Source: Bradyrhizobium ontarionense
GTDB lineage: Bacteria; Pseudomonadota; Alphaproteobacteria; Rhizobiales; Xanthobacteraceae
Direction: 5' to 3'
Assembly: GCF_021088345.1 (NCBI RefSeq)
Contig: NZ_CP088156.1
Location: 5,642,001-5,706,000, forward strand
DNA: 64,000 bases
The position numbers and the translations under genes are program-made. The notes under the pieces are model-generated. The model worked only from the letters and a program-made list of their open reading frames with translations, did not search any database and was not told the origin of the DNA. Positions 24,217 to 62,190 of this stretch are shown here, piece after piece (the stretch's first letter is position 1; each line of letters begins with the position of its first letter).

Positions 24217-24425
24217 CAGCAGGGTCTCGGAGAGGAATGGAGGCGCGGGGGGACCCGACGCGTAGGATTTAGCTCGTTTTCGTGATGCGTGATTGCGATG
24301 AAATATACCCCGAACGCGGGCAGGGATGGAAAAATGGGCATATCGCCGCGATATGAGCAAATCCGGTTGGCGCGTAAGTGTGGCGACGATAAGGATGTAA
24401 AACTCGGATTCATCAACGTTTTTTC

Positions 24426-47325: not shown

Positions 47326-48939
47326 GTGCAAGAGACGGGTCTACGCAACGGTGCCTTCGGTGCCGACAAGTTCGGCTTAAAGAATCTCAAGCAGGTGCAT
47401 TGGAATCTCGGCGCTCCCCAGCTCTATCAATATTCGCTGGCGGCGGGCGAGGCGGTGCTGTCTTCCGATGGTGCGTTGTGCGCGGATACCGGCGAGTTCA
47501 CCGGTCGTAGCCCGAAGGACAAGTTCACGGTTCGCGATGCCTCCACCGAGAAGATGTGGTGGGCGGGCAACCAGGCGATCACGCCCGAGCAGTTCGAGGC
47601 GCTGTATCAGGACTTCGTCAAGCATGCCGAAAGCAGGACCCTGTTCGCGCAGGATCTCTATGGCGGCGCCGATCCGACCTTCCGCATCAAGACGCGCGTC
47701 TTCACCGAGCTCGCCTGGCACTCGCTGTTCATCCGCACCTTGCTGATCCGCCCCGAGACCATCGAGCTCGATACCTTCGTGCCGGAGCTCACCATCATCG
47801 ACATGCCGAGCTTCCGCGCCGATCCGAAACGTCACGGCGTGCGCTCGCAGAACGTCGTCGCGATCGATTTCGCCCGCAAGATCGTCCTGATCGGCGGGTC
47901 TTATTATGCCGGTGAGATGAAGAAGAGCGTGTTCACCACGCTCAACTACTATCTGCCCGGACGCGGCGTGATGCCGATGCACTGCTCGGCCAATGTCGGT
48001 CCGAAGGGCGACACCGCGATCTTCTTCGGCCTGTCCGGCACCGGCAAGACGACGCTGTCGGCCGATCCGAACCGCACGTTGATTGGCGACGACGAGCATG
48101 GCTGGGGTCCGTCCGGCGTGTTCAACTTCGAGGGCGGCTGCTACGCCAAGTGCATCAAGCTGTCGCAGGAAGCCGAGCCGCAGATCTATGCGGCGTCGAG
48201 CCGGTTCGGCGCGGTGCTGGAGAACGTGGTCCTCGACGAGGATACGCGCGTTCCCGATTTCGACGACGGCTCCAAGACCGAGAACACTCGCTCGGCCTAT
48301 CCGCTCGACTACATTCCGAACGCCTCGCGCACCGGCCGCGCGCCGCATCCGAAGAACGTCGTGATGCTCGCTGCCGACGCCTTCGGCGTGCTGCCTCCGA
48401 TCGCCAAGCTGTCGCCGGCGCAGGCGATGTACCACTTCCTGTCGGGCTACACGGCGAAGGTCGCCGGCACCGAGCGCGGCCTCGGCAACGAGCCGCAGCC
48501 GGAGTTCTCGACCTGCTTCGGCTCGCCGTTCCTGCCGCTCGACCCCTCGGTCTACGGCAACATGCTGCGGCAGCTGATCGCCGATCACAATGTCGACTGC
48601 TGGCTGGTCAACACCGGTTGGACCGGCGGCAAGTATGGCACGGGCACGCGGATGCCGATCAAGGTGACGCGCGCGCTGCTGACGGCGGCGCTCGACGGCT
48701 CCTTGCGCAACGTCGAGTTCCGCACCGACAAATATTTCGGCTTCGCGGTGCCATCAGCGCTGCCGGGCGTGCCGAGCGAGATCCTCGATCCGGTCAACAC
48801 CTGGAAGGACAAGGCCGAGTTCGACAAGACCGCGCGCGCGCTGGTCGGCATGTTCCAGAAGAACTTTGCCAAGTTCGAAGCCCAGGTCGACGCCGACGTC
48901 CGCGCCGCCGCGCCGGATCTGAAGCTGGCGGCGGAGTAG
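47326..48939 (+). CDS. pckA: Phosphoenolpyruvate carboxykinase (ATP)
   Basis: A 537-residue enzyme converting oxaloacetate and ATP to phosphoenolpyruvate, the first gluconeogenic step during growth on dicarboxylates. The start is GTG at 47326 with AGGAGG seven bases upstream. The P-loop [11 protein letters not shown], metal sites in MHCSANVG and DDEHGWG, and the closing [15 protein letters not shown] motif are present. Rhizobial pckA often sits near chvI and is regulated by carbon source. Confidence 0.97.
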
Positions 48940-48991
48940 CTGTCTCCAAACCTCTCCCCGTGATGGGCGAGGTTAAGCTGCATCCACAGCT

Positions 48992-49112
48992 GTCGTCCCG
49001 GCGAACGCCGGGACCCATAACCACAGGACAGCGTAGTGAGGCGTGCGGGCAGCTTCAGCCTCCGCCAAATCTAGGACGGTGTTTATGGGTCCCGGCTCAA
49101 GGCCGGGACGAC
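48992..49112. repeat. REP pair with inverted arms (no gene inside)
   Basis: The left arm GTCGTCCCGGCGAACGCCGG (then GACCCATAA) and right arm TTTATGGGTCCCGGC...GCCGGGACGAC are inverted relative to each other and enclose about 62 bases. Each arm is itself a hairpin. Its arms match the arms that flank the GIY-YIG gene at 53124-53520. It lies between the convergent pckA and thioesterase genes. Confidence 0.75.
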
Positions 49113-49140
49113 ACCGATAGTGTGGCGCCGACCATCCGTC

Positions 49141-49962
49141 TCACGCCTTGAAATACGCGATCTGCGTCGTCGTCGCGAGCAGCCGGCCCGACGGCGACCA
49201 CAGCTCGCCGTGCTGGTCCTGATAGCTGCGGTTGAACACCTTGGCATCCGCGGTCGCGAGCACATGCGTGATGTTCTCGGCGGCCAACTCATCGCGGCTG
49301 ACGTGGAAATAGGTCGTCAGCGACACTGTGCCGAACGGCACCAGCTCGCCGCGGGCATGGAAGACGCGGCCGAAGAACGCATCCGACATCGCCAGCAGCG
49401 ACAGGCCATCGAGCTTGCGCGGCCTGCGGTCGGAGATCCAGAGACGGGAATAGCTGCTGTGCGGCTCGCCCGACGGTGAGGCGCCGGAGGCCGGGCGTCC
49501 TTCGATGAAGCGGAAGTCGTATTGCTTCGTCCACGACATGTTCGTATTGGGATGACGCTTGACCTGATCGAACGGCGGCGCCTCGGGCTTGACGGCCGGC
49601 TGGTGCGACCATGACGGCCGCCGCTCGGCGAACACGGCGGTGGCGAGCGTCGCAGCGTCCGCATTGCCCTGGCTCAGCTCGACGCACCAGTGCTGCGAGG
49701 AGCGGTTGGCCTTCACCAGCCGCACGTCGAGATCGAACGGCCCCTCCGCGATCGGCGCGCAATAGTTCACCGTGAGCGCCAGCGGATCGCCCTGGATTTG
49801 CGGATGCTCGATCAGCGCGCGCAACACGGTCGCCGCGGTCGCACCGCCGAACGGGCCGACGAAGGCCCAGTAGTCCGGGCTGGTCCGGCCCTGCCAGCGG
49901 CTGTCGCCGGCGGTGACGCGGGTGGCGTCGTCGAACAGGTGAGCTGAGCTTTCAGGAAGCAT
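49141..49962 (-). CDS. TesB-like acyl-CoA thioesterase
   Basis: A 273-residue double-hotdog protein. The start is ATG at 49960-49962; ten residues upstream are dispensable. The N-terminal hotdog contains YWAFVGPFGGATAATVLRALIEHPQIQGDPLALTVNYCAPI, a pattern of the TesB/thioesterase family; the C-terminal hotdog starts LLAMSDAFFGRVFHARGELVPFGTVSLTTYFH. It hydrolyses acyl-CoA thioesters, with chain preference unknown. The upstream hypothetical gene overlaps its start by 11 bases, suggesting co-translation. Confidence 0.83.
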   Translation of the reverse strand: MLPESSAHLFDDATRVTAGDSRWQGRTSPDYWAFVGPFGGATAATVLRALIEHPQIQGDPLALTVNYCAPIAEGPFDLDVRLVKANRSSQHWCVELSQGNADAATLATAVFAERRPSWSHQPAVKPEAPPFDQVKRHPNTNMSWTKQYDFRFIEGRPASGASPSGEPHSSYSRLWISDRRPRKLDGLSLLAMSDAFFGRVFHARGELVPFGTVSLTTYFHVSRDELAAENITHVLATADAKVFNRSYQDQHGELWSPSGRLLATTTQIAYFKA

Positions 49963-50311
49963 GATCCGTCCGCACCTCGACTTGCGTGCCATCCCACCGC
50001 CGAAATTCGATCGTTTCGGTCAGCTCACCGTATTGTCGATAGCCGGCAAGATCACCGGCTGGATCAGCCGAGATCCACGCGTCGGTGATCTTGCCGCCGA
50101 TACGCTGTACGGTGATGACGCTGACGCTCGTGATGAGGTCAGTCACCAGGCGCTCGGTCGCTTCAGTCTCGCTCAACCCGGACAGGTCAGCCAGGGTGCT
50201 GCCGTGGGTATGCCAGGGACAGCCGTCGAACCCCATCGTCAAATCGCCGTCAGGACAGATGACCAGAAACTTAAGCAGGCCGTCGGGGCTGACATATTCG
50301 CGGGGCTGCAT
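49952..50311 (-). CDS. Hypothetical protein overlapping the thioesterase gene
   Basis: A 119-residue soluble protein (MQPREYVSPDGLLKFLVICPDGDLTMGF...) with predicted beta-alpha character and no signal peptide. I do not recognise a domain; the plan loosely resembles small immunity-type proteins. Its stop lies 11 bases inside the thioesterase start, so it heads a two-gene unit. A REP pair lies downstream of glgP and immediately upstream of this gene. Confidence 0.6.
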   Translation of the reverse strand: MQPREYVSPDGLLKFLVICPDGDLTMGFDGCPWHTHGSTLADLSGLSETEATERLVTDLITSVSVITVQRIGGKITDAWISADPAGDLAGYRQYGELTETIEFRRWDGTQVEVRTDHAS

Positions 50312-50338
50312 TGGCGCTGACTACTCTCGACCACTGCC

Positions 50339-50418
50339 GTCATTGCGAGGAGCTCTCGCGACGAAGCAATCCAGTCTTTTCACTTTGCCCTGGATTGCTT
50401 CGCTTCGCTCGCAATGAC
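50339..50418. repeat. Palindromic repeat, GTCATTGCGAG family (copy 1)
   Basis: Left arm GTCATTGCGAGGAGCTCTCG...GAAGCAATCCAG and right arm CTGGATTGCTTCGCTTCGC...GCAATGAC are inverted copies with a short centre. The same family recurs at 62113-62190. It lies between glgP and the hypothetical gene. Confidence 0.75.
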
Positions 50419-50438
50419 GACGGAGCGTTGTCACCTTT

Positions 50439-52949
50439 TCACGCCCGCTGCGCATGCACCGGTGTTGCCGCAATAGGACCGACCGGCACGTTCCAGATGT
50501 CGTCGGCATATTCGCGGATGGTGCGGTCGGAGGAGAACCACGCCATGCGCGCGACGTTGAGGATCGAGGCCCGCGTCCAGGCAGGCACCGTCTGCCAGCG
50601 TGCATCGATGCCGCGCTGGGCCTCGTAGTAGGAATCGAAATCGGCCGAGACCATGTAGTGGTCGAGATGGCGCAGCGCATGCGCGATCGGCTCGAAGCGG
50701 CCCGGCTCGCCCGGCGAGAAGGCGCCTGCGGCGATCGCATCGATGGCGCGCGCGAGCCGCGGCGAGCGGCGAATGAGATCTGTGGCGTCGAGGCCCTGCT
50801 TGCGCCGGAGCATCACGTCCATCGCCTCCATGCCGAAGATCGCGATGTTGTCGGCGCCGACATTGTCGCGGATCTCGATATTGGCGCCGTCCAGCGTGCC
50901 GATGGTGAGGGCGCCGTTCAGCGCCAGCTTCATGTTGCCGGTGCCGGAGGCCTCCATGCCGGCGGTCGAGATCTGCTCGGAGAGGTCGGCCGCGGGAATG
51001 ATCGCTTCCGCCAGGCTGACATTGTAGTCGGCGAGGAACACGACCTTGAGCCGGCCGCCGATCGCGGCATCGTTGTTGACGACCTCGGCGACGTCGTTGA
51101 TCAGCTTGATGATAAGCTTGGCGTAGCGGTAGCTCGCCGCCGCCTTGCCGGCGAAGATTTTCACCCGCGGCACCCAGTCGCGCTGCGGGTCGTCCTTCAT
51201 GTCCTGGTATAGCGCGACGGCCTCGATGATGTTGAGCAGCTGCCGCTTGTACTCGTGGATGCGCTTGATCTGCACGTCGAACAGCGCGGCGGGATCGAGG
51301 CGCACGTTCATGCGCTCGCCGATCAGACGCGCGAGCTGCACCTTGTTGTGATGCTTCACGGCGCGGAACTTCTGATGGAAGGCGCTGTCGCTGACGTAGC
51401 TCTCCAGGCTCGGAAGCAGGGTCGGATCATCGACGATGGCGTCGCCGCAGGCTTCCTGCAACAGGCTGGTCAGCTTCGGATTGGCCAGCATGAGCCAGCG
51501 GCGGAAGGTGATGCCGTTGGTCTTGTTGGTGATGCGGCCGGGATAGAGATGGTTGAGATCGTGGAACACGGTCTCCTTCATCAGGTCTGAATGCATCGCC
51601 GAGACGCCGTTGATGCGATGCGAGCCGACGAAGGCGAGCTGGCCCATGCGCACGCGGCGTCCGCTCCTCTCGTCGATCAGGGACACCGAGGCGCGATAGT
51701 CGATGTCGCCGGGCGCGCGCTCCTCGGCCAGCGCCAGATGCTGCGCGTTGATGCGGTAGATGATCTCGAGATGCCGCGGCAGCAGCCGCTCGAACAGTTC
51801 GACCGGCCAGGTCTCGAGCGCTTCCGGCAGCAGCGTGTGGTTGGTGTAGGACAGGGTCGCGACCGTGACCTTCCAGGCCTCGTCCCAGCGGAAATTATGC
51901 AGATCGACCAGGATGCGCATCAACTCGGCGACCGCGAGCGACGGATGCGTGTCGTTGAGCTGCACCGCGGCCTTCTGCGACAGGCTGCGCAATTGCCCGT
52001 CGGAGCCGAGATGGCGCTTGACGAGGTCCTGCAGCGAGGCCGAGACGAAGAAATATTCCTGGCGCAGCCGCAGTTCGCGTCCCGCCGGGCTCTCGTCGTT
52101 CGGATAGAGGAATTTGCAGATCGCTTCCGCACGCGCTTCTTCGGCCGATGCGCCGAGGTAGTCGCCGGAGTTGAACACGTCGAGCTTCAGCGGATCGGGC
52201 GAGCGCGCCGACCACAGCCGGAGCGCATTGACGTGCTGGCCGCGCCAGCCGACGATCGGCGTGTCGTAGGCGACGGCCTGCACGGTCTCGCCGGGATGCC
52301 AGACGGCACGGGCGCGGCCCTTGTCGTCGATGTGCTCGACGCCGCCGCCGAAATGGACGTGATAGACCACCTCGGGACGCTGGAATTCCCAGGGATTGCC
52401 GAACGACAGCCAGACGTCCGGATATTCGTGCTGCCAGCCGTCGACGATCACCTGCCGGAACAGGCCGAAATCATAGCGGATGCCGTAGCCGATCGCCGGG
52501 ATCTGCAACGTCGACATGCTCTCCATGAAGCAGGCCGCGAGCCGCCCGAGGCCGCCATTGCCGAGTGCGGCGTCCGGCTCGCATTTGCGCAGATCCGTCA
52601 GGCCGACGCCGAGATCGCCGAGCGCGGTCTCGAACACCTTCATCAGCCCCATGTTGTTGAGCGCGTCGGTGAACAGGCGGCCGATCAGGAATTCCAGGCT
52701 GAGATAATAGACGCGCTTGCGTCCGGCGTCGTAGCTCTCTTTGTCTGCGGTCAGCCAGCGATGCACGATGCGGTCGCGCAGGGTCAGCGCCGCGGCATGG
52801 TACCAGTCCTGCGCCGTCGCCTGGCTTGCTTCCTTGCCGATGGCAAGCCGGAGCTTGGCGAGGACGTCGCTCTTGATCTCGGCGACCGCCAATTCGTCGA
52901 CGGGCTGGCCAGAGGTGGCGAAGCTGCGCTGGGGCGGGTGGTCTGTCAC
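50439..52949 (-). CDS. glgP: Glycogen/maltodextrin phosphorylase
   Basis: An 836-residue PLP enzyme that releases glucose-1-phosphate from glycogen. The PLP-lysine motif EASGTGNMKLALNGALTIGTLDGANIEI is intact, and GRLAACFMESMSTLQIPAIGYGIRYDFG is the N-terminal catalytic region. Length is normal. The ATG has only weak upstream purines. It is separate from other glycogen genes in the window; upstream is the GIY-YIG unit. Confidence 0.97.
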   Translation of the reverse strand: MTDHPPQRSFATSGQPVDELAVAEIKSDVLAKLRLAIGKEASQATAQDWYHAAALTLRDRIVHRWLTADKESYDAGRKRVYYLSLEFLIGRLFTDALNNMGLMKVFETALGDLGVGLTDLRKCEPDAALGNGGLGRLAACFMESMSTLQIPAIGYGIRYDFGLFRQVIVDGWQHEYPDVWLSFGNPWEFQRPEVVYHVHFGGGVEHIDDKGRARAVWHPGETVQAVAYDTPIVGWRGQHVNALRLWSARSPDPLKLDVFNSGDYLGASAEEARAEAICKFLYPNDESPAGRELRLRQEYFFVSASLQDLVKRHLGSDGQLRSLSQKAAVQLNDTHPSLAVAELMRILVDLHNFRWDEAWKVTVATLSYTNHTLLPEALETWPVELFERLLPRHLEIIYRINAQHLALAEERAPGDIDYRASVSLIDERSGRRVRMGQLAFVGSHRINGVSAMHSDLMKETVFHDLNHLYPGRITNKTNGITFRRWLMLANPKLTSLLQEACGDAIVDDPTLLPSLESYVSDSAFHQKFRAVKHHNKVQLARLIGERMNVRLDPAALFDVQIKRIHEYKRQLLNIIEAVALYQDMKDDPQRDWVPRVKIFAGKAAASYRYAKLIIKLINDVAEVVNNDAAIGGRLKVVFLADYNVSLAEAIIPAADLSEQISTAGMEASGTGNMKLALNGALTIGTLDGANIEIRDNVGADNIAIFGMEAMDVMLRRKQGLDATDLIRRSPRLARAIDAIAAGAFSPGEPGRFEPIAHALRHLDHYMVSADFDSYYEAQRGIDARWQTVPAWTRASILNVARMAWFSSDRTIREYADDIWNVPVGPIAATPVHAQRA

Positions 52950-53123
52950 CTTGGAAACCTGTGATGCTACGTGGAACCAGAAAAAAGCATACGATGGTTG
53001 GGTGCGGATCGAAACCCGGGGAAGGGCCGGTCCGCACAGCTCGGTGATAGAAAATTATGCAAGGTTCGGGCCGGGTTCCGATGAGGAACGGGGGCGATAA
53101 TGCTGCATGTGCACATGGTCCTC

Positions 53124-53154
53124 CGTCGTCATCCCGGCGGAAGCCGGGATCCAG
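53124..53154. repeat. Left REP arm of the GIY-YIG unit
   Basis: A hairpin arm starts CGTCGTCATCCCGGCGG and ends CCGGGATCCAG, finishing two bases before the GIY-YIG stop codon. It is an inverted copy of the arm at 53491-53520. Confidence 0.75.
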
Positions 53155-53156
53155 AC

Positions 53157-53459
53157 TCACCGGCCGAAGATGAGGCCCGACAGGTCGCTCCAATCGAGAT
53201 TGTCTCTTTGAATGAGCTCGACCTTCCAATCGCGATGCCAGTTCTTCAGCTGCTTCTCGCGGGCGATCGCCTCGAGCGGCCTCGCAAAGCGCTCGACGTG
53301 AACGAGCCGAAAAACCCTGTACTTGCTGACAAACTTAGACCCTCGACCAGCACGATGCTCTTCCAGCCGCCGTCTCAGATCATTCGTCACTCCGATGTAC
53401 AGCGTGCCGTGATGCCCGCTGGCGAGGATGTAGACCGTCCATGCGGCCTCGGTGCTCAT
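53157..53459 (-). CDS. GIY-YIG nuclease-domain protein, REP-bracketed
   Basis: A 100-residue single-domain protein. The start at 53457-53459 (MSTEAAWTVYILASGHHG) is the first Met before the domain; the frame continues upstream only through the REP arm. The GIY-like VYIL, YIG in LYIGVTNDLRRRLEEH with catalytic Tyr and Arg, and the Glu in EAIAREKQLKNW all fit the small COG2827-type GIY-YIG nucleases. No ribosome site is apparent. Inverted REP arms flank it at 53124-53154 and 53491-53520, an arrangement recalling REP-associated transposases of enterobacteria. Confidence 0.85.
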   Translation of the reverse strand: MSTEAAWTVYILASGHHGTLYIGVTNDLRRRLEEHRAGRGSKFVSKYRVFRLVHVERFARPLEAIAREKQLKNWHRDWKVELIQRDNLDWSDLSGLIFGR

Positions 53460-53490
53460 CGGTCGTGCAAACCAAACAGCTGCGGTGGGT

Positions 53491-53520
53491 CTGGGTCCCG
53501 GCTCGGGGGCCGGGACGACG
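53491..53520. repeat. Right REP arm of the GIY-YIG unit
   Basis: An arm starting CTGGGTCCCGGCTCGG and ending CCGGGACGACG lies 31 bases upstream of the GIY-YIG start, inverted relative to the left arm. It also matches the arms at 48992-49112. Confidence 0.75.
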
Positions 53521-53646
53521 ATAAATGAGCACTTCCCTTTTCGGCAAGAACAAATTAAGAACAATTTAGCAAGCGATCGTTATCTGTGGTTCGATTCGAT
53601 CTCTCCGCCAGACGCTCCCGGCATCAGCGCATCACGCGAGGATACC

Positions 53647-54078
53647 ATGTCCACCACCGCCTTCGATCCATTGGCCCTGACCCGCATTGCCGATTTCGCG
53701 CGCACCTTGACGCGGCTGCACAAGACCGCGCGGCGACGCGCCGTCGACGACGATCAGATCGACCGTGCGTTCAACGCCGTCTGCATGTCGGTCTGGGGCT
53801 ACACGACCGACGACATTTCCGACGATCTGTTCTCGGCCACCGACCACACCTTCCTCGATGGCCTCGACGAGGCGCGGGCGCGCATCTTCGCCGCCGAGCA
53901 GGGCTATGATCTCGTCGACGACGAGGGCATGCTGACCGACTGGTGGGGCTTCTGCTGGATGATCCTGGCCGAGAAGCGGGGTCTGCTGACGCCGGACAAC
54001 CGCGAGGCCGCGCGCGTGGCGATCGAGGAGAAATATCTCACCGCACCGAACGTCATCGGCGTCATCGTCGGGCGTTAA
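53647..54078 (+). CDS. Hypothetical conserved-looking protein
   Basis: A 143-residue acidic cytoplasmic protein (MSTTAFDPLALTRIADFARTLTRLHKTARR...). It is largely alpha-helical, with Trp-rich WWGFCWMILAEKRG and a closing APNVIGVIVGR. No signal peptide or membrane segment, and I do not recognise a family. The start is ATG 53647; the upstream in-frame extension runs through REP sequence. It is divergent from the GIY-YIG unit. Confidence 0.65.
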   Translation: MSTTAFDPLALTRIADFARTLTRLHKTARRRAVDDDQIDRAFNAVCMSVWGYTTDDISDDLFSATDHTFLDGLDEARARIFAAEQGYDLVDDEGMLTDWWGFCWMILAEKRGLLTPDNREAARVAIEEKYLTAPNVIGVIVGR

Positions 54079-54154
54079 AGACTTCGGCCGTCATTCCGGG
54101 CGCGCACGGCGCGAACGCGGCATCTCGAGTCGGGCAGGGTCTCTTATCGAGACC

Positions 54155-54973
54155 TCAATTCACATCCGCGCGCTTCTCGCGGCTCACGGCAGGCTTGGGC
54201 GCAATGCTTATCGGCGGCGCGACGCTGACATTGACCTCGGCTGGTGCGGGCGCAGGTGGCAAGTCGGCGCCGACAGTGTCGGCACGCACCGGCGCGACCT
54301 TCATCTCGTTGAGCCTGGCGCGGGTATCCGAGTTCAACCCGGGATAGGACGCCACTGGTTTGAAATCGGCCGGTTGGCTGTTGCCGCCGCGCGGGCCCGA
54401 ATAGGCGACGAGTCCGTCGCTGGTCGCGACCACGTCGCCGGGTCGCAGCGAGGTGTCGAGCGACAGGTCGACCGGAGCCAGCCCGGCCGGATCGCGACCA
54501 TTGCAGGTGCAGTCGGGACGCAGCGCCTGGCGATAGGCGAACGCGTTGTCGCTATCGGCGTAGCGCTCGCCATTGGCCGCGGTCGCGTAGTCGATGTTGG
54601 AGCCGAAATAGACCTTGGTCGCGCTGGCCGGGCAGAACGCCTGGCACATCTGGACGGGTGAGGCGAGGCCGCGCGCCAGCGGGAAATAGCGGCCGTCGCA
54701 GCTGCGCACGCAGAATGCCGCGCCGGATCCGCCGGAGGCCGCGCGCGGCTGCGGTGCGGCTTGCGGATTGCTGCCGAACGGATCGGAGAAGAAATTGCCC
54801 TGCGGCGCCTGGCGCTGCGAGGCCGGCTTGTTGAAGCCGCCGAACAGGAAATCGAACAGGCCCTGGGCCGCGGCCATGTGCGGCGTCAGCGCCACCGATA
54901 CGGCGATGCCGATCGCGGTCGCGAACAGCACGCGGCGGGGCACCCGCCGAAACGACGACACGCTACGCAACAC
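54155..54973 (-). CDS. DUF2865 exported protein
   Basis: A 272-residue protein with an N-terminal signal anchor (RVLFATAIGIAVSVALTPHMAAA). The DUF2865 core has a Cys-rich pattern: FCVRSCDGRYFPLARGL...MCQAFCPASATKVYFGSNIDYA and PDCTCNGRDP. A Pro/Ala-rich, probably disordered C-terminus follows (PPAPAPAEVNVSVAPPISIAP). It is likely an envelope protein with disulfides; function unknown. Monocistronic. Confidence 0.82.
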   Translation of the reverse strand: MLRSVSSFRRVPRRVLFATAIGIAVSVALTPHMAAAQGLFDFLFGGFNKPASQRQAPQGNFFSDPFGSNPQAAPQPRAASGGSGAAFCVRSCDGRYFPLARGLASPVQMCQAFCPASATKVYFGSNIDYATAANGERYADSDNAFAYRQALRPDCTCNGRDPAGLAPVDLSLDTSLRPGDVVATSDGLVAYSGPRGGNSQPADFKPVASYPGLNSDTRARLNEMKVAPVRADTVGADLPPAPAPAEVNVSVAPPISIAPKPAVSREKRADVN

Positions 54974-61706: not shown

Positions 61707-61928
61707 ACCCTCCCCTGGAGGGCAGGGCTATCGCATGTGACGGTCCAACTTTGAGTTCGGCTCCCTCCACACCGTCATGGCCGGGCTCCGTCCCGGCCAT
61801 CCACGTCGTTCGGCATCCTGGGAAGGACGTGGATGCCCGGGACGGAGCCCGGGCATGACGACGTGGAGGCAGCGGAGCGAAACGACTCAGATCTTCATAT
61901 GCGATAGCCCTGCCCTCCAGGGGAGGGT
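61707..61928. repeat. Perfect 30-bp inverted repeat enclosing a BIME-like palindrome
   Basis: Outer arms at 61707-61736 (starting ACCCTCCCCTGGAGGG) and 61899-61928 are exact inverted copies over 30 bases. Inside lies a palindrome (61764-61869) with CCTCCAC...GTGGAGG ends and GTCATGGCCGGG/CCCGGGCATGAC arms. A third CCCTCCCC-type hairpin occurs at 62033-62055. Confidence 0.75.
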
Positions 61929-62112
61929 CGCCTGGCATGAGTGCAGCGAATGTGAGGCGGGGTGTGGTGATGTCTCCACACGCACCAGCGTCTGCGGCTT
62001 CACCCCACCCCGCTCGCCCGCTTCGCGGTGCGACCCTCCCCCTCCAGGGGAGGGTGGCACCTCGCGCTGGGCTGAGCGATGCGATGACACATCAAAGCAG
62101 CCTCGCCGCATC

Positions 62113-62190
62113 GTCATTGCGAGCGCAGCGAAGCAATCCAGAATCATTCCGCGGCGGCAGTCTGGATCGCTTCGCTGCGCTCGCAATGAC
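62113..62190. repeat. Palindromic repeat, GTCATTGCGAG family (copy 2)
   Basis: Left arm GTCATTGCGAGCGCAGCGAA...CAATCCAG and right arm TCTGGATCGCTTCGCTG...CGCAATGAC mirror the element at 50339-50418. It ends 25 bases before the polA stop codon. Confidence 0.75.

Follow-up and report, generated by a model that had tools for sequence, protein, structure and literature searches.

The 64-kb window (the whole stretch of DNA that was analysed) contains a small GIY-YIG nuclease gene enclosed by two inverted, CGTC-tagged palindromes of the REP type, and the explanation we favour as probable is that a CGTC-REP family is seen here in its gene-bearing form, with the GIY-YIG protein as the family's dedicated nuclease and with arm pairs that are mobilised. 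The two parts of this reading call for different degrees of confidence: we regard it as very likely that the protein is the dedicated nuclease of its CGTC-REP family, and we put forward only tentatively, at somewhat short of an even chance, that this nuclease mobilises the REPs. The enclosed layout given in the preliminary description is borne out by the ORF translation, the PF01541 match and the palindrome positions (Table 1), as is its gene-less pair of the same arm type near 48992-49112, which we place at 48991-49113 and assign to the same stem class.

Table 1. Features of the GIY-YIG unit, its neighbours and the gene-less palindrome pairs in the window
Feature	Position	Strand	Evidence
Left arm of gene-less outward-facing pair, stem class of the gene arms	48991..49017	+	palindrome detection
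Right arm of gene-less outward-facing pair, stem class of the gene arms	49086..49113	-	palindrome detection
Neighbour: carbohydrate phosphorylase gene, called glgP	50439..52949	-	PF00343, 1035 bits
Left arm of the unit, CGTC-tagged palindrome, tag outwards	53127..53153	+	palindrome detection, single-stranded folding
Inward extension of left terminal inverted repeat; overlaps stop codon	53154..53162	+	inverted similarity
GIY-YIG nuclease gene, 100 aa	53157..53459	-	translation; PF01541, 65.2 bits; purifying selection, conserved catalytic-type residues
Inward extension of right terminal inverted repeat	53483..53491	-	inverted similarity
Right arm of the unit, CGTC-tagged palindrome, tag outwards	53492..53520	-	palindrome detection, single-stranded folding
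Neighbour: conserved gene, no Pfam match; site anchor in 96/98 genomes	53647..54078	+	site comparison
Left arm of gene-less pair of another CGTC family	61773..61803	+	palindrome detection
Right arm of gene-less pair of another CGTC family	61830..61860	-	palindrome detection

The protein matches the PF01541 model far above its threshold (cut-off 22.6 bits). Our Pfam search of the 100-aa sequence returned only GIY-YIG and T5orf172, with neither the HUH motif nor the catalytic tyrosine of RAYTs, and the NCBIfam search gave a single weak match, far under its cut-off. The best PDB sequence matches are the UPF0213 proteins 1zg2 (E 2.4e-7) and 1ywl (E 1.3e-6), which by sequence form a different group. 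Conserved Tyr, Arg and Glu positions have roles in the GIY-YIG motif, and these are present in the family of the window protein: Y10, Y21, G23, R31, H35 and E68 are conserved at 99-100% in 81 aligned sequences. The gene is under purifying selection, with a median dN/dS of 0.11 (range 0.03-0.35; 72 pairs among 13 genes at the glgP site), a value of which only the direction is safe, since dS often exceeds 1 among these genes.

Both arms have the attributes of CGTC REPs, namely the tag, a stem of 8-9 bp, a short loop and a CCA tail. The left palindrome (perfect 8-bp stem, 4-nt loop) lies 3 nt from the stop codon and the right one (perfect 8-bp stem, 6-nt loop) 32 nt from the ATG. Inverted similarity continues inwards, for ~36-38 nt per end, and the extension CCATaACC is common to the arms of the unit and the gene-less arms; the two gene arms and the pair 48991-49113 fold as single strands with z-scores of -3.1 to -4.1. 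A strict detector of perfect-stem CGTC-type palindromes, run over the 64 kb, found six of them (the two gene arms and the pairs 48991-49113 and 61773-61860), and a seventh match, at 24392, contains a mismatch in the stem and is probably fortuitous. A general repeat search of the window, run with default settings, missed the gene's arms, and an Rfam search of 48500-54500 gave no match.

The pair 48991-49113 is also present in the closest genome (G065). At 50338-50419 there is another outward-facing CGTC-tagged pair, whose stem is shorter, and it shares with a single CGTC-tagged palindrome at 62112-62139 a ATTGCGAG/GAAGCAAT core; among the loci searched, no GIY-YIG gene had arms with this core. 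ATTGC-type palindromes were considered as GIY-YIG gene arms and rejected, the matching loci (L098, L231) having a ATTGCGGG stem and not the ATTGCGAG type of the window. The genome from which the window comes has seven GIY-YIG matches. Four are genes of the present group, two are small genes that belong to other groups, and one is a 714-aa frame, probably uvrC. Four of its six small GIY-YIG genes carry CGTC arms, of four stem types, and the other three of the seven matches are without arms. As is typical of CGTC REPs, copies are dispersed through this genome, with 35 exact copies of the CCCGGC type and 15 of the CCCTGC type.

Arms of this kind are strongly enriched at the GIY-YIG subfamily to which the window gene belongs. 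We tested the best 80 of the 564 homologous loci found, and a perfect-stem palindrome lies within 150 bp of the gene in 54 of them, on both sides in 39 and facing outwards on both in 32; for 2292 control positions in the same loci the corresponding values are 2.7%, 0.22% and 0.13%, and strict palindromes occurred in 0/1600 shuffled flanks. Motif-free inverted 12-mers span the gene at 50/74 loci vs 0.95% of 1687 positions. Other GIY-YIG groups have neither strict arms nor such 12-mers (0/22 loci each), which rules out that the arms accompany any GIY-YIG gene; this set of 22 was first listed after the palindromes had been inspected and was then confirmed by BLASTP score (20-50 vs 81-206 bits). 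Among Bradyrhizobium-type loci of the present group, 12/14 have an arm. The 26 of the 80 loci that lack a strict arm comprise 17 with an inverted 10-mer, a figure that comes without a control, and nine with none; an additional set of 56 loci, drawn from other genomes and from plasmid records and with four places represented twice, has a palindrome within 400 bp in 33 cases and none in 23. Homologues at E 1e-12 or better occur in 99/398 Pseudomonadota genomes, and the phage homologues found (13 records, E 5e-8 to 8e-6) include none covering 80%. The layout is real, specific and widespread, and the association is far above chance. A reading by chance or hitch-hiking would hold that REPs gather in intergenic DNA or serve as terminators and that small genes gain them by position, and it could draw on the observation, in the available text of PMC3733652, that REPs lie mainly downstream of coding regions. 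It is contradicted by the position controls, by the group controls and by the clade-specific arms described below; chance itself is ruled out by position controls, shuffles and group controls, and we give this reading almost no credence.

Outward-facing CGTC-type arms at the gene were also seen in Bacteroidota and candidate-phylum bins (L058, L069, L071, L076, L106, L107, L113 and others); these loci are far outside Proteobacteria and may be binning errors. Three records filed as plasmids (NZ_CP119142.1, NZ_AP026896.1 and CP090106.1; 2.2, 4.9 and 3.7 Mb) resemble chromosomes in size or gene content.

The gene and its arms are present or absent as one block, as in a transposable element. Unit-free sites in related genomes, of the kind anticipated in the preliminary description, exist both at the glgP site and between sufB and sufC in Azospirillum. 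At the glgP site, the gene or fragments of it are found in 26/59 genomes; a cognate arm, under the strict loop limit, is present in 20 of these 26 sites, two arms in 14, and at the gene-less sites there is none in 33 genomes (glgP itself being located in 20 of the 33). Two of the gene-less genomes carry palindromes of other families, one locus (L130) shows an arm-like remnant by eye, and in the alignment G021 and G083 lack the entire block. Azospirillum lipoferum 4B has a pair-gene-pair block, with 509 bp from one outer tag to the other, in the space between sufB and sufC; the sufB-sufC span is 1861-1958 bp in 11 other Azospirillum records (H50-H60) vs 2446 in 4B, and no palindrome is left at this place in three aligned Azospirillum species that are 95-96% identical. 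Joining the flanks of the window locus gave no exact empty site, the flanks being too diverged; likewise the unit junctions could be read only short of base level in diverged intergenic DNA. For the gene-less pairs we found several empty sites and no clean target duplication.

Besides the GIY-YIG unit of A. lipoferum (L267), the sufB-sufC site is occupied by a GIY-YIG homologue in Shinella (L297) and by a DUF559 unit in Sphingomonas parapaucimobilis (L298), and it looks as if it were a preferred target. The clade found at the glgP site (hereafter clade a) sits at one site in 29/30 loci, so any movement of the gene must be rare. The 37 loci of a second clade (clade b), with some places counted twice, fall into five different flank contexts, and genome G031 has two clade b copies in different places, which are 88% identical along a shared 458-bp stretch that takes in the gene and its arms.

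GIY-YIG is a homing-endonuclease domain, and the unit might accordingly be a homing-type parasite, its nuclease gene inserting into pre-existing REP pairs that serve as target only; genes with a full pair on each side (L077, L082, L101, L267) would suit such insertion. The gene-less sites, however, hold no intact target pair, neither at the glgP site (no cognate arm in 33) nor in the three Azospirillum species, and repeat copy number tracks the gene clade. We therefore consider this origin improbable.

The type of arm follows the clade of the protein. In 39 loci, the stem to the left of a gene differs from the one to its right by a mean of 0.87 of 8 bases, vs 3.69 for permuted partners (lowest of 5000 permutations 2.79), and the distances of proteins and arms are correlated over 54 loci (Mantel 0.39; maximum of 2000 permutations 0.13). 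The arms change together between subclades, with CCCGGC or CCTGGC on both sides of one unit, and the paralogues in G490 have different stems, one of the five loci examined being without an arm. In another Bradyrhizobium clade (L077, L082, L093, L101) the gene lies between two full pairs, and a pair there is asymmetric, since its arms differ from one another (ATGCCCCG and ATCGTCCG).

Each gene clade also predicts the abundance of its own repeat type, with no crossover. We counted three exact patterns (CCTGGC, CCCGGC and CCCTGC) in 98 Bradyrhizobium genomes; the reversed patterns, counted as controls, were absent from all genomes shown. Clade membership was coded by hand, and fragments of clade a could be missed in the 39 of the 98 genomes that are without site comparison. 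The 31 genomes with a trace of clade a, 12 of them with stops, fragments or displacement, have medians of 37 CCTGGC and 68 CCCGGC repeats vs 0 and 5 without (p 4e-11 and 4e-9) and do not differ in CCCTGC repeats (p 0.24), relatedness being ignored. One genome (G063), first coded as being without clade a, has a fragment beside the anchor gene; with it included, the 32 clade a genomes have medians of 33.5 and 63 vs 0 and 5 (p 1e-11 and 2e-9; CCCTGC p 0.18). Conversely, the 32 clade b genomes have a median of 20.5 CCCTGC repeats vs 2 without (p 1e-6) and show no difference in the other two types (p 0.38 and 0.62), again with relatedness ignored. Independent pairs on a tree of 59 of the 98 genomes gave 6:0 for CCTGGC (p 0.03), 7:1 for CCCGGC (p 0.07) and 4:5 for CCCTGC with clade a, and 13:1 for CCCTGC (p 0.002) with 6:2 and 7:6 for the other types with clade b; this test is weaker than the plain comparison of genomes, yet concordant with the pairing of clade and repeat. 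Exceptions occur: a repeat type is abundant in some genomes that do not have its matching clade (G005, G014, G020, G052 and others), and 8/32 clade b genomes have fewer than 10 CCCTGC repeats. G043 has just two exact CCCTGC repeats, and both are found no more than 165 bp from its clade b gene.

RAYTs presumably move REPINs in trans, and a comparable mechanism by which the GIY-YIG protein recognises, cleaves and moves its repeats is plausible here. The protein would recognise its own REP as a single-stranded hairpin and nick it near the CGTC tag; host repair might then excise the arm pair or copy it to new sites, either alone or together with the gene, and the gene-less outward pairs would be non-autonomous derivatives moved in trans, as presumed for REPINs and their RAYTs.

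The CGTC-tagged REP super-family was defined by Di Nocera, De Gregorio and Rocco in 2013 (PMC3733652). In the available text of that paper its members have a CGTC or TGTC tag, an 8-bp stem starting with AT or GT, a loop of 4-6 nt and a CCA tail, are mostly paired in opposite orientation, are known from Bradyrhizobium and are said to lack a dedicated transposase. The arms in the window resemble them in tag, stem, loop and tail; whereas that text gives no dedicated transposase, here a GIY-YIG gene accompanies the arms, and a GIY-YIG nuclease would fit the vacant role. The word GIY is absent from the text of PMC3733652, and none of the literature matches listed linked GIY-YIG with REP. The preliminary description had drawn an analogy to enterobacterial REPs, which holds for the gene between inverted REPs but has to be qualified in that the enterobacterial REPs are GTAG-tagged and associated with RAYTs, and those of the window belong to a separate super-family (PMC3733652, available text). 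The unit shares with RAYT/REPtrons a small nuclease-type gene between inverted, cognate REPs, and a repeat-specific pairing in species with several families, described for GTAG REPs in the accessible part of PMC3733652; it differs in having a GIY-YIG and not an HUH domain, and CGTC and not GTAG repeats. It thus works like a RAYT/REPtron without being a member of that group. The proposal that the GIY-YIG nuclease is an analogue of RAYTs agrees with the enriched arms, the unit-free sites and the covariation of clade with a genome-wide repeat family, and its part on the moving of REPs stays a suggestion. Of the findings that the preliminary description named as refuting it, a lack of arm enrichment and a lack of empty-site polymorphism were looked for, and neither was borne out.

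A single-domain protein tied to a repeated sequence also recalls the Ssn nucleases. According to a paper from 2025, these GIY-YIG nucleases of Neisseria reportedly act on single-stranded DNA, which they cut at a repeated sequence, and have homologues with their own sequences, and their proposed role is said to be the modulation of natural transformation in Neisseria; the family of the window protein is presumably covered by that work. A gonococcal homologue of the window protein (51% identity) sits among CGTC CGTCATTCCCGC repeats and is, we infer, Ssn. Ssn resembles the window protein in being a small single-domain GIY-YIG protein associated with a repeat, and differs in the role reportedly proposed, that of modulating transformation. 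If this account is right, the biochemical half of our explanation is directly supported and the protein family was already known. It also lends some weight to the idea of a host-serving, site-specific single-strand nuclease, for which the REPs would be an address, e.g. in tuning DNA uptake or recombination, having spread by other means and then been kept. In keeping with such a role are the reported function of Ssn, the gonococcal homologue among its repeats, and the age of the gene and its vertical retention at the glgP site (dN/dS ~0.11). Taken alone, however, a host function leaves unexplained the tight placement of both arms at the gene, the gain of gene plus arms as a block inside an operon and the fact that a clade predicts only the copy number of its own repeat; we judge it unlikely as the sole explanation, and it can coexist with that of a dedicated nuclease.

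The pairing of a small nuclease with a REP class may be general, since small DUF559 genes are associated in a like manner with another class of palindromes. At the sufB-sufC site of Sphingomonas parapaucimobilis (L298:1345-1755) the DUF559 gene is flanked by CTCC-type palindromes. Small DUF559 loci of Bradyrhizobium (24, from 30 loci, L300-L329, less four that are too short and two long-protein loci without arms) have CTCC-type palindromes within 200 bp in 22/24 and on both sides in 16/24, vs 2.5% and 0 of 2400 controls. The CTCC-type pattern had been set after viewing these Bradyrhizobium loci, and the count was therefore repeated on 25 of 29 new DUF559 loci (L330-L358) from other alphaproteobacterial genomes: at least one side carries a CTCC-type palindrome in 21/25 and both sides in 9/25, vs 0.5% and 0 of 750 controls, and motif-free inverted 12-mers are found at 16/25 vs 0.13%. 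There was no crossover, with CGTC arms at 0/24 DUF559 loci and CTCC-type arms at 0/44 GIY-YIG loci, which again speaks against hitch-hiking by position. One DUF559 protein matches a restriction-nuclease model just under the cut-off. It is conceivable, though we would not call it probable, that several REP classes are the non-autonomous crowds of their own small non-transposase nucleases (GIY-YIG with CGTC, restriction-nuclease-like DUF559 with CTCC), beside the HUH RAYTs with GTAG, and that such replicators, spreading by hairpin cleavage and host repair, have originated three or more times, each time from an unrelated nuclease fold.

CGTC REPs have a wide distribution, and in 2013, as far as the available text of PMC3733652 goes, no enzyme had been assigned to them. 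With a dedicated, clade-specific nuclease, how they arose and spread becomes directly testable, and the clade-specific pairs supply many natural combinations of nuclease and hairpin. The parallel with DUF559 hints at a general rule for the rise and persistence of small bacterial repeats.
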